From Hydrogenobacter sp. (GTDB taxonomy: Bacteria > Aquificota > Aquificia > Aquificales > Aquificaceae), in the NCBI GenBank assembly GCA_023255875.1, contig JAGDVY010000015.1, positions 1 through 43,225 of the forward strand: a stretch of 43,225 bases of DNA. The letters run 5' to 3'. The notes under the pieces were generated by a model, which was given only the letters and a program-made list of their open reading frames with translations, did no database searches and was not told the DNA's origin. Positions 18,402 through 37,348 of this stretch are shown piece after piece. The first letter of the stretch is position 1; each line of letters starts with the position of its first letter. Position numbers and translations under genes: made by a program.

Positions 18402-18616
18402 GAAATTTGCTTTTGTTAGCCTTGGTGGGTGTAGCCTTTTCGCAGAAGGCTTTTGAAAGTTTAGAGGGTGCTGTAGGTTATATAGTTATTGAAAAAAACG
18501 GAAGGACAGAAAATTACATAGTAGTAGAGGAAAAGGACGGAAAGGTAAAGACCATTAGGGTAAACCAGAACCCATCGCAGTTTCTAAAAAAGACTGAAGA
18601 AGGAGGGAAGAAATGA
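18398..18616 (+). CDS. Small secreted protein in the pilP position (72 aa)
   Basis: A GTG start at 18398 follows AAAGGAGGAGG and overlaps the pilO stop by 4 nt; the 3' end overlaps pilQ by 4 nt. The product has a short signal peptide (LLLLALVGVAFSQ) and a mature part of about 55 residues that could be a small beta domain (AVGYIVIEKNGRTENYIVVE). In pil operons, pilP lies exactly here and encodes a periplasmic lipoprotein that connects PilNO to PilQ. This protein has no lipobox cysteine and is much shorter than typical PilP (about 150-180 residues). It may be a minimal replacement or a remnant. The function is inferred from position only. Confidence 0.7.
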   Translation: MRNLLLLALVGVAFSQKAFESLEGAVGYIVIEKNGRTENYIVVEEKDGKVKTIRVNQNPSQFLKKTEEGGKK

Positions 18617-20364
18617 GGAAGGTAGTTTTGTCTATACTTTTTCTGCTGAGCGTGTCTTTGGCACAGATCATAAAAGAAATGAAGTTTGAAAATGTAAAAC
18701 TGGAAACAGTGCTAAAAGCTCTGTCTCAGGTTGCTAACATGAATGTCATCTTTGATCCTCAGGTATCTCAAGAAGTGTCCAAAACTGTCAGTATAGCCAT
18801 ATACAAGCCAGTGCCCGTTGGAGAAGCTATGAACATAATACTCAAGGAGTACGGACTTATAGCGGTACCAGTAGATAAAAGCGTTTATAAGATAACCAAG
18901 GCTGGAGAGATAAGCATAAGCCTTTCTGGACTTGATGACACTCAAATAGATAAGTTTGTGAAGTTTCTAAAGCCAAGAGTGAGCCCATCTGCGGAAATAG
19001 TCATAGACAAAACTTTAAAGACAGTCTATATAAGAGATGAAGAAAGCAATATAAAGAAGCTGGAGCCCATACTCAAAGACTATACTAAGATTGTGGAAAA
19101 AGTGGCACCCGCGGAAGAACGTGTTACTAGAGTTTTCTATCTTAAAAACATATCCTTAGACGAAGCGGAAAGGCTTTTGAGTGCCTATAAAAGACCAGAT
19201 ACGGTAATTACTAAAGTGTATAGTTTTTCCGCTCTTGTGATAACAGATACCCCCAAGCAGATGGAAAAGTATCATGAAGTACTTAAAAACTTTCTCACCA
19301 TGACACCTGCGGAAAGAAGACCTGTAACCAAGATCTTCTACCTTAAGTACATAAGCCCGGACGAGTTTATAAAGATGATAGAACCCCTTAGGTCAGAGGC
19401 TGGCACTATATTGAGCGGTGGAGCCTTAAGGACACAAGCACCTATACAACAGCCACAAATGGCGCAAACTCAACAACAACAAACCCCTCCTTCACCCATA
19501 CTCAAAGAGTTCAACGCGGTGATGATCACAGACTATCCAGAAGTTATAGAGAAGATAAGAGAAAGATTTAAAGATTACATAAGTGATTCACCCGTCCAAG
19601 TCAAGATAGAGGCAAGGATCATTGAGATAAGAGAGGAAGCTTTAAGGGAGCTGGGTATAAATTGGAATGTTTTGCTCTCTAATACAAAGGTATCTCAGTT
19701 TTGGAGCGGTGGAGTAGGACAAGGAGCCAACATAGGCACTTCGCCACCTGTTCCTAGTACTATATTTGGACCTCCTACCCCTCCTCCATATTACACGCCT
19801 GGGCTTTCTTCCACTCCAGGTGGTATATTCACCTTTACCTATGGGAAGGGAGTTTTAAATGCCCTAAACCTAAGACTATCCGCTCTTGAACGTATATCCT
19901 TGGCAAGAAACATAGCCAAACCTACAGTAGTGACCATAAACGCTCAAAAGGCAACCATAAAACAGGGAGTGCAGATACCTTATCAAACCACTGTAGTTGC
20001 GGGGGGTGCTCAGGCTGCCAACATACAGTTTAAAGATGTGGTGCTTCAGCTTGATGTCACGCCAGTTGTCTCACCAGACGGTAGGATACTCTTAGACATA
20101 AACCTCAAGAGGGATACACCAGGACAGCAAACTCCCCAGGGGCCTGCTATAAACACCAAAGAAGCCTCCACAAAGGTGGTAGTCAACGATGGAGACACCT
20201 TAGTTATAGGAGGTATAATAGACAACCAAGAGTCTAAGACTAACGAAGGGGTTCCAGGTCTTGTGAGAGTGCCCATACTCAAGTGGATCTTTGGACAAGA
20301 AAGATTACAAAACACTCAGACCGAACTCCTCATATTCCTAACTCCAGTACTTATAAGAGAATGA
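18613..20364 (+). CDS. pilQ: Type IV pilus secretin PilQ
   Basis: PilQ forms the outer-membrane ring through which the pilus passes. This 583-residue protein has a signal peptide (VLSILFLLSVSLAQ), an N0/STN domain (KFENVKLETVLKALSQVANM to about residue 95), N1-type repeats with RVFYLKNISLDEAERLL and KIFYLKYISPDEFIKMI, a Gln/Pro-rich linker (about 275-295), and the secretin barrel. The barrel includes ARIIEIREEALRELGINWN, a glycine- and proline-rich gate region, and a terminal VVNDGDTLVIGGIID. It lacks the AMIN domains found at the N-terminus of many proteobacterial PilQ proteins. It overlaps the next gene by 4 nt. Confidence 0.94.
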   Translation: MRKVVLSILFLLSVSLAQIIKEMKFENVKLETVLKALSQVANMNVIFDPQVSQEVSKTVSIAIYKPVPVGEAMNIILKEYGLIAVPVDKSVYKITKAGEISISLSGLDDTQIDKFVKFLKPRVSPSAEIVIDKTLKTVYIRDEESNIKKLEPILKDYTKIVEKVAPAEERVTRVFYLKNISLDEAERLLSAYKRPDTVITKVYSFSALVITDTPKQMEKYHEVLKNFLTMTPAERRPVTKIFYLKYISPDEFIKMIEPLRSEAGTILSGGALRTQAPIQQPQMAQTQQQQTPPSPILKEFNAVMITDYPEVIEKIRERFKDYISDSPVQVKIEARIIEIREEALRELGINWNVLLSNTKVSQFWSGGVGQGANIGTSPPVPSTIFGPPTPPPYYTPGLSSTPGGIFTFTYGKGVLNALNLRLSALERISLARNIAKPTVVTINAQKATIKQGVQIPYQTTVVAGGAQAANIQFKDVVLQLDVTPVVSPDGRILLDINLKRDTPGQQTPQGPAINTKEASTKVVVNDGDTLVIGGIIDNQESKTNEGVPGLVRVPILKWIFGQERLQNTQTELLIFLTPVLIRE

Positions 20365-36161: not shown

Positions 36162-36238
36162 TCTAAGAAAACAGCAAAAGCTCTCTACAATGAAGAGGCA
36201 ATATATATTTAGATATAACTCCTTTGGGGAGGTAAGGC

Positions 36239-37348
36239 ATGAAGCGGTTTTATGCCCTTGCGATAGTTTTAGCGGTGGCGGTAGCTTTTGCCTTTGCGTG
36301 GTTCTACCAAAAGAATCACAGACCTTCCGTACCAGACAAAAAGGCAATGCTAAAAGCTATAGAAACACTACCAAGAGGCTTTGTCCCTAACCAAGGTCAG
36401 TGGCATGAAGATGCCCTCTTTTCCGCTCCGGGATTTTTTGGAAACACTTGGATTACCAAAGACGGCGAGCTAAGACACGTTATTTTGGCTGAACCCACAA
36501 AAGCTTGGGTCATATCTGAAAGCTTTGTAGGTGGTAGCGTAAAAGAAGTAAAAGGAGAAAAAGAACTACCCACAAAAGTGAGCTACTTTGTAGGAAGTGA
36601 TCCAAGCAAACACAAAGCAGGTCTGCCTTCCTATGAGATAGTCTCTCTTGGAGAGGTGTGGAAAGGTATAGAAGTTAAGCTAAAAGCAAAACAAAACAGT
36701 GTAGAGAAGATATTTATAGTAAAGCCCGGAGCAAATCCAGAGGAGATAAAGATAGCAGTAAAAGGAGCTAAAAGAATAGAGATAAAGGACAGTGGAGAGT
36801 TAGTGGTAAAGACAGACTATGGAGATGTGGAGTTTTCCAAGCCAATAGCATGGCAGGAAGAAGGGAATAAGAAAAAGCCAGTGAAAGTGAGCTACAAGCT
36901 TGACAGGACAAACAACACCTATGCCTTTGTGGTAGAAAGTTATGATAAAAACAAACCATTGTATATAGACCCACTCCTTGCTTCTACGTTCCTTGGGGGA
37001 AGTAGTTATGATGAAGCCTATGCCCTTGCCGTAGACAGTTCAGGTAATGTGTATGTGGCAGGAAAAACATCATCAAGCGATTTTCCAACCAAATCAGGGG
37101 CTTACTACACAACCTCTAATGGTGGTGATGCTTTTATCTCAAAGTTTGATGCAGATCTTTCTTCTGGCACATCAGGCGGTGGTGGAGGTAGTGGAAGTGG
37201 TGGAGGTAGCGGATTTGATGATACTGATGATACTGATAATGTTAGAGGTGGTGGCGGATGCTCTATGGTGGCAAGTGCATCTCCCGTTAACCTAATTGCA
37301 TGGCTCTTTGTTCCTATTGCAGTATTGCTTAGAAGAATTAGGAAGTAA
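36239..37348 (+). CDS. One-repeat SBBP surface protein with C-terminal sorting tail
   Basis: The 369-residue protein has an N-terminal membrane or signal helix (LAIVLAVAVAFAFAWF), a DUF7948-like domain beginning GFVPNQGQWHEDALFSAPG that usually precedes beta-propeller repeats, and a single SBBP repeat (STFLGGSSYDEAYALAVDSS, then GNVYVAGKTSSSDFPTKSGA). A Gly/Ser linker with Asp-Thr repeats (GFDDTDDTDN) comes next. The C-terminus is GGGGCSMVASASPVNLIA, a hydrophobic helix, and RRIRK. That tripartite tail resembles CTERM protein-sorting signals recognised by rhombosortase- or exosortase-like enzymes; none is encoded here. SBBP proteins normally have many repeats, so this copy is minimal or internally deleted. 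GGGGAGG precedes ATG 36239, within a small CTCC/GGAG hairpin. Confidence 0.8.
   Translation: MKRFYALAIVLAVAVAFAFAWFYQKNHRPSVPDKKAMLKAIETLPRGFVPNQGQWHEDALFSAPGFFGNTWITKDGELRHVILAEPTKAWVISESFVGGSVKEVKGEKELPTKVSYFVGSDPSKHKAGLPSYEIVSLGEVWKGIEVKLKAKQNSVEKIFIVKPGANPEEIKIAVKGAKRIEIKDSGELVVKTDYGDVEFSKPIAWQEEGNKKKPVKVSYKLDRTNNTYAFVVESYDKNKPLYIDPLLASTFLGGSSYDEAYALAVDSSGNVYVAGKTSSSDFPTKSGAYYTTSNGGDAFISKFDADLSSGTSGGGGGSGSGGGSGFDDTDDTDNVRGGGGCSMVASASPVNLIAWLFVPIAVLLRRIRK

Follow-up and report, generated by a model that had tools for sequence, protein, structure and literature searches.

The gene at positions 36239..37348 of the forward strand encodes a 369-residue protein composed of a DUF7948 domain, a single SBBP repeat and a C-terminal sorting tail. 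It is probable, at roughly 0.64, that this tail is a Cys-type sorting signal cut by a myxosortase-like CPBP protease, that the type II secretion system (T2SS) carries the protein to the surface, and that the lone repeat is the remnant of a propeller. The window referred to below is the whole stretch of 43,225 nucleotides analysed, which belongs to the draft genome of a heat-loving Hydrogenobacter species (G000; 1,254,788 bases in 42 contigs, 99.86% complete). We infer that the gene product would be an exported surface protein whose C-terminus is a Cys-containing sorting signal like those of the MYXO-, JDVT- and Synerg-CTERM systems. Once exported by Sec, the protein would be retained in the inner membrane by its tail; the tail Cys would probably be lipidated, and the helix would be removed by a CPBP glutamic protease of myxosortase-like type, whose gene lies on another contig and overlaps gspK. 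Transport to the cell surface would then fall to the T2SS, and the lipid would hold the protein there. The displayed part would be the folded DUF7948 domain, and the lone repeat, probably unstructured, would be the remainder of a propeller whose repeats number seven in most relatives examined.

The gene has an ATG start and an intact open reading frame, and is preceded by GGGGAGGT (36226..36233, read directly), a probable ribosome-binding site. A Sec-type signal peptide (MKRFYALAIVLAVAVAFAFA) without a lipobox Cys was recognised by eye at 36239..36298, with a presumed cleavage site. The DUF7948 domain occupies residues 48-246 (36380..36976; Pfam E 2.4e-49, 168.7 bits against a cut-off of 27) and is followed by exactly one repeat, delimited at residues 246-310 (36974..37168) with a 65-residue repeat HMM; within it, residues 252-283 match the Pfam SBBP family at 38 bits against a cut-off of 20.5. 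The linker at 37169..37246 is rich first in Gly/Ser and then in Asp/Thr (DDTDDTD), and it leads into the tail GGGGCSM-hydrophobic-RRIRK at residues 337-369 (37247..37345), which was delimited by tail searches and alignments and in which the conserved Cys codon lies at 37259-37261. All of these features lie on the forward strand. Pfam, the repeat HMM and direct reading thus confirm the anatomy given in the first-pass annotation of this DNA, namely a head domain, a single repeat, a linker and a tripartite tail. One repeat is too few for a closed SBBP beta-propeller. tblastn searches of the window with the lone repeat, the whole protein and a seven-repeat relative detected no further repeat copy (best other match E 0.078); these same searches also showed no hidden or frameshifted repeats in the window, such as the frameshifted upstream copies that the annotation had asked about. 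Upstream, on the other strand, lies what we take to be a FeoB-like reading frame, and the downstream neighbour is presumably sirtuin-like.

When the window protein was compared with its own genome, one further match was found, restricted to the tail and situated at the C-terminus of an S8 subtilase (E 5.4e-7), whose N-terminus, judged by eye, is a signal-peptide-like stretch. The earlier proposal that other proteins of the genome might carry the same tail was borne out by this one case. At the DNA level, the pattern encoding Gly-Gly-Cys-(Ser/Thr-like)-Met was present at these two tails and nowhere else in the genome, and the reversed pattern had 0 occurrences. Among 17 tails collected, 15 were aligned (A1; the variants L023 and L028 were left out and are both included in A5), and G-G-C-S, one Pro and one Arg were invariant in 15/15. 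Used as a query, this alignment matched 28 of 101 genomes of the order at E 0.01; a wider model (20 rows), in which one Gly and the Cys are invariant, matched 42 of the 101 at that threshold, with 0-8 tail matches per genome.

Proteins bearing the tail in the order include subtilases, InlB-type proteins, PKD proteins and SBBP proteins, as found by a Pfam scan of ten tail-family proteins, three of which (L030, L034 and L110) had no Pfam match at all. An NCBIfam scan of nine tail-family proteins and the genome's rhomboid found choice-of-anchor U or Q domains in four of the nine tail proteins; the domain adjoins the tail in L104, L105 and the variant-tailed L028, and lies farther upstream in L112. 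The name choice-of-anchor presumably refers to the variety of anchors that come after such a domain. For the window protein, JDVT (NF033191) was the one sorting-tail model listed, at 11.7 of the 27 bits required. For MYXO-CTERM (TIGR03901, cut-off 20 bits), the window protein was unlisted, the subtilase of the same genome scored 16.6 and the best of nine relatives 18.9, and no curated tail cut-off was reached by the window tail, the subtilase or the nine relatives scanned. The tail is tripartite with an invariant Cys, as is demanded of MYXO-CTERM. The first-pass view that the tail is a sorting signal looks right.

Departures from the common tail were also noted. Two proteins from other genera, L028:1-1209 and L023:169-2421, end in the variant tails GGGGCNTGG and GGGCSAV, which suggest clade-specific tail types. 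In the seven-repeat protein L101:1140-3494 (G078:C19), GGGSSM stands where its kin have GGGCSM, so that Ser occupies the position of the tail Cys. In the four-repeat L100:3220-4902 (G058:C30), the Gly-rich linker runs straight into RRIRRK, and both the Cys motif and the helix are absent; such a protein would be released rather than anchored. Three similar genes with the same tail (L108, L109 and L110 on G016:C13, C53 and C52, respectively) each lie close to the end of a contig, so the G016 assembly is probably interrupted by a repeated family of tail-bearing genes.

One match to the Rce1-like (CPBP) family exceeds the Pfam cut-off in the genome of the window (45.2 bits against 22.4). It is a 177-residue open reading frame at 10.7-11.2 kb of contig C38 and is adjoined by neither putative target, the subtilase tail lying at C38:34.1 kb and the window gene on C7. 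Its best NCBIfam match is Mrt_core (NF040914; E 3.2e-14, 52.9 of 100 bits); MrtS (NF040589) gives 38.8 of 130 bits and MrtJ (NF033192) 33.7 of 75 bits, and no Mrt cut-off is reached. Across an alignment of 21 of the 30 protease reading frames (A3), Mrt_core, MrtP, MrtC, MrtJ and MrtS were each matched by 21/21 sequences at E 0.001, and EExxxR, the second His and HxxxN, the motifs expected of a CPBP protease, were invariant in all 21. We take the second His to be a residue of the CPBP catalytic motifs. EExxxR and HxxxN are given as such motifs in the available text of PMC11980579. The structural model of the protease (mean pLDDT 88.9) has a CPBP-like fold, aligning with Rce1 (4cad; Z 12.1, rmsd 3.2, 144 residues aligned) and SpdC (6u0o; Z 11.2, rmsd 4.1, 155 aligned); Z values under 13 are ambiguous for helical proteins according to the tool, and the gap to the next row (Z 4.7) is the telling feature. 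A search of solved-structure sequences with the protease profile gave no match at E up to 1. The nearest named relatives of the protease come from bins of Hydrogenobacter (73% identity) and Thermocrinis (up to 56%).

To relate tail and enzyme, 101 genomes of the order were compared, a genome being counted as tail-positive at E 0.001 or better with the wider model; weaker matches in G005, G043, G046 and G050 were counted as negative, and counting was by E value, the match in G001 lacking the Cys part. The protease was matched in 68 of the 101, or 66 without the weak partial hits in G078 and G047. Of the 38 tail genomes, 34 carried it, compared with 32 of the remaining 63 (Fisher p 4.5e-5, with shared ancestry ignored), or 35/38 versus 33/63 with G078 and G047 taken as positive. 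By genus, 13/13 with tails had it versus 4/8 without (p 0.012, shared ancestry again ignored). The association was weaker with the stricter 15-tail model at E 1e-5 (17/20 versus 49/81, p 0.03). The tail genomes without the protease are G034 (99% complete), G045 (96%), G078 (87%) and G079 (85%), and the absence from G034 and G045 is not easily excused by incompleteness. A Pfam search at E 0.01 found no Rce1-like protein in ten genomes that include G034, G078 and G079, G045 lying outside this set. A full tail protein, L104:701-3385 (G034:C8), is encoded in the 99% complete genome that has no Rce1-like match, and would be either an orphan tail or one served by a different enzyme.

Other families of processing enzyme were considered. 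Exosortase was rejected, PF09721 having no match in the genome at E up to 1. Rhombosortase was likewise rejected, the genome's single rhomboid scoring 125.3 bits against the general rhomboid cut-off of 22.6 and only 14.9 of the 84 bits required by the rhombosortase model (TIGR03902). That this rhomboid, or some other enzyme, cuts the tail is nonetheless conceivable, since in Vibrio cholerae GlpG is reported to cut the GlyGly-CTERM protein VesB when rhombosortase is absent (PMC13393428, in the text available) and G034 has the tail with no Rce1-like match; we regard it as unlikely, given the poor rhombosortase score and the conserved Cys, which the accessible part of PMC11980579 describes as the mark of myxosortase-type tails. 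From its sequence, the candidate processing enzyme is likely a myxosortase-like CPBP glutamic intramembrane protease. The first-pass annotation had placed a dedicated processing enzyme elsewhere in the genome and expected a rhombosortase- or exosortase-like protease; a candidate does exist elsewhere, of the myxosortase-like CPBP type rather than either of those named. It had also held that a genome without further tails or an enzyme would count against its reading, and the subtilase tail and the CPBP protease were both found.

A connection to type II secretion is visible at the protease locus, where the protease reading frame overlaps the end of gspK (T2SSK 34.6 bits against a cut-off of 24.2; NCBIfam GspK 87.9 of 130 bits). 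gspK directly adjoins the protease gene in 15 of 30 loci (the best 30 of 68 matching genomes), some of which end at contig ends, where short flanks cannot reveal a neighbour. It stands beside the protease in 11 of 80 named loci, ten of them from Aquificaceae and one labelled Acidobacteria. This last contig (L125) holds an Aquificaceae-type gspK-protease pair at 49% identity, which would reflect either mis-binning or transfer. Elsewhere in the genome of the window there is a GspD (473.1 bits against a cut-off of 351.35) with a GspD N0 domain, and the PDZ gene upstream of the GspD gene is probably gspC. A second secretin gene, at 18613-20364 of the window, has a 588-residue frame that scores 164.7 bits to GspD, below the cut-off, and is probably a type IV pilus secretin. 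Proteins with MYXO-CTERM tails (PMC11980579) and with GlyGly-CTERM tails (PMC13393428) use the T2SS according to the accessible text of these sources, in which the link between tail and T2SS is already published on the basis of substrate behaviour and genome co-distribution. If true, the overlap of gspK and protease would make this published link genetically direct.

It could be argued that the tail does no more than anchor the protein permanently in the inner membrane through a C-terminal transmembrane segment, and that the CPBP protease is unrelated to it. The four tail genomes without the protease, the 32 protease genomes without a detected tail and the absence of gspK beside half of the protease loci (best 30 of 68 matching genomes) would all sit comfortably with this, yet a plain anchor needs no G-G-C-S before its helix, the motif is invariant in 15/15 tails, and it is common to unrelated proteins and co-occurs with a myxosortase-like protease. 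We therefore judge a plain anchor rather improbable, and favour a sorting tail that would be cut by the CPBP protease.

Among known systems, MYXO-CTERM/MrtX of the Myxococcota resembles the present case in its tripartite tail with an invariant Cys, its CPBP glutamic protease and the presence of a T2SS. According to the available text of PMC11980579, MrtX is needed for cleavage of the MYXO-CTERM of TraA, in dependence on conserved cysteines. The processing of TraA by MrtX is shown experimentally. M. xanthus has 35 substrates (PMC11980579), against 0-8 tail matches per genome here; the motif here is a single-Cys GGGGCS that scores below the curated cut-offs, and the protease, unlike MrtX, has 177 residues and lies beside gspK in half of the best 30 loci. 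JDVT-CTERM/MrtJ shares a tail with an invariant Cys and a small CPBP protease. MrtJ and its single target form a two-gene neighbourhood, as far as the source is accessible (PMC11980579), in contrast to the protease and two putative targets here, which lie apart. Neither JDVT cut-off is attained by the tail or the protease, at the 11.7 of 27 and 33.7 of 75 bits given above. Synerg-CTERM/MrtS likewise combines a CPBP protease with a tail, which we assume to contain Cys; the MrtS cut-off of 130 bits is far from the 38.8 obtained here, and the Synerg-CTERM tail model reached 12.8 of 22.5 bits in one relative. GlyGly-CTERM/RssP has a Gly-rich start, a link to the T2SS and an occurrence on secreted proteases in common with the present tail (PMC13393428, in the text available), but its enzyme RssP is a rhomboid, and the only rhomboid here falls well short of the rhombosortase model. 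The DUF7948-SBBP proteins share the head domain and the repeat, with seven repeats in 13 of 22 loci as against one in the window gene.

Repeat number was counted in these 22 loci (21 fetched and the window). Seven repeats, the commonest state, were found across genera and families. Every repeat exceeded 50 residues in 9 of the 13 seven-repeat loci, and the counts for L020, L024, L025 and L027 include short, partial matches. In L013, the repeats lie in a reading frame split from its DUF7948, and L014 runs to a contig end. The window gene, L010 and L099 have one repeat each, as does L016, whose gene has a stop in DUF7948; L100 and L026 have four, L105 has two, and L017 (five) and L012 (three) are both truncated by the ends of their contigs. 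The same tail as in the window protein is found on L015 and L018, two seven-repeat relatives. Two further genomes have one-repeat forms, and the one-repeat forms do not group together in a single clade. In the tree, in which only 3 of 14 inner branches were well supported, L099 joins L101, a seven-repeat protein of the same genome (92/82), and L010 shares a clade (100/99), unresolved internally, with the four-repeat L100/L011, the window protein lying outside it. Alignments A2 and A4 were built without L012, L013 and L016, whose genes contain in-frame stops or frame breaks; L020, which has an unreadable residue, was included in A2 and left out of A4.

Repeats within L101, L018, L013 and L100 were mostly more alike than repeats of different proteins, and repeats of L100 and L101 were as alike as those within L101. 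No positional match of repeats between arrays was seen, the diagonal equalling the off-diagonal in comparisons with L101. Likeness within arrays together with this lack of positional match implies that the arrays have been homogenised or re-amplified, and fixes the direction of no single change. When the halves of the lone repeats were compared with first and last repeats, a clear result was obtained only for the right half of L010 and repeat 7 of L101 (DNA identity 0.76 versus at most 0.65). Edge identity was dropped as a sign of direction, a left edge near the DUF and a right edge near the linker fitting loss and gain alike.

Contraction of an array is the likeliest origin of the one-repeat architecture, and with seven repeats in 13/22 loci, the first-pass suggestion of a product of repeat loss is a likely one. 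The lone repeat could instead be a nascent blade, at the start of amplification rather than at the end of a contraction; likeness within arrays without positional correspondence is what re-amplification or homogenisation would give, and the accessible parts of PMC6805158 and PMC9218822 report the origin of new propellers from single blades. A nascent blade, which we consider doubtful, is opposed by the predominance of seven repeats in the examined loci, across genera and families, and by the nesting of one-repeat forms among four- and seven-repeat relatives (in a tree with few well-supported branches). It is very improbable that the one-repeat form is an assembly artefact in which short reads collapsed a tandem array. 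Although the window genome is a 42-contig draft, the repeats of the seven-repeat L101 are only 63-80% identical in DNA, and the one-repeat homologue L010, with the same tail, lies in G019, a single contig of 1,521,037 bases, which speaks against assembly collapse there.

Model blocks reached a pLDDT of up to 97 within DUF7948 and only 32-51 over the lone repeat, which is thus probably disordered in the model, an outcome that may partly reflect the prediction method. A Foldseek search with the DUF7948-repeat model gave no match at E 0.001 or better. VIA-align placed GLMP first (6nyq; Z 11.0, rmsd 3.8, 184 residues aligned), followed by GH38, GH95 and YidC entries, all of whose matching folds we take to be supersandwich-like, and a supersandwich-like fold, at the level of fold class only, is accordingly suggested by modelling for DUF7948. 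A search of solved-structure sequences with the DUF7948-repeat profile gave only weak matches, CylK (E 0.0026) being matched over the repeat region.

The first-pass annotation had raised the possibility of a surface-displayed monomer that oligomerises through its lone blade. In the available text of PMC6805158, single-blade PkwA and WRAP constructs did not fold, whereas two- to six-blade WRAP constructs did. With a blade that is predicted to be disordered, self-assembly into a propeller is unlikely, and the oligomerising monomer finds no favour here. The assembly of an intermolecular propeller from lone blades at the cell surface might draw on the homo-oligomers formed by two- to six-blade WD40 propeller fragments and on an abstract that speaks of one- to six-bladed blocks (both PMC6805158, in the text available). 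The unfolded single-blade constructs of that work, the low pLDDT of the repeat beside that of DUF7948 and the absence of any mention of SBBP in the searchable text of PMC6805158 make such assembly highly unlikely.

Selection was assessed over DUF7948 in six pairs among four sequences of genus g4, one-repeat members included, and dN/dS was 0.10-0.20; against the window sequence, dS over DUF7948 was near or at saturation. Such values support an intact function of DUF7948 in genus g4, as far as sequence comparison goes, and bear on the domain and not on the repeat. A gene decaying without function would agree with the frame interruptions in L013 and L016, the Ser at the tail Cys position of L101 and the loss of tail motif and helix in L100. 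The window reading frame is intact with a good ribosome-binding site, however, and the dN/dS values, which include time before any repeat loss, are low in genus g4, so that decay is an improbable explanation.

The finding is genuine and, for the most part, of an ordinary kind: a C-terminal sorting tail with a likely enzyme. A literature search over titles and openings of abstracts, to which the main source on these families did not belong, returned no description of this system. As far as that search and NCBIfam release 20 reach, three things look new: the phylum of the host, the lack of a curated model and the linkage to gspK. A bolder combination of the results can be put forward only tentatively. 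It would have the Aquificaceae hold an undescribed myxosortase branch, a sorting protease built into the T2SS through a gene overlapping gspK, which would license Cys-tailed proteins for export at the pseudopilus tip, and it would make the one-repeat proteins natural single-blade states, cycling between one and seven blades, in which an unfolded blade between the DUF7948 head and the tail can be lost and re-amplified. If the sorting mechanism proposed here is true, Cys-tail sorting with a myxosortase-like enzyme would extend to the Aquificota, with few detected substrates per genome. The series from one to seven repeats, in close relatives with the same head domain, would offer a natural test bed for the gain and loss of propeller blades.
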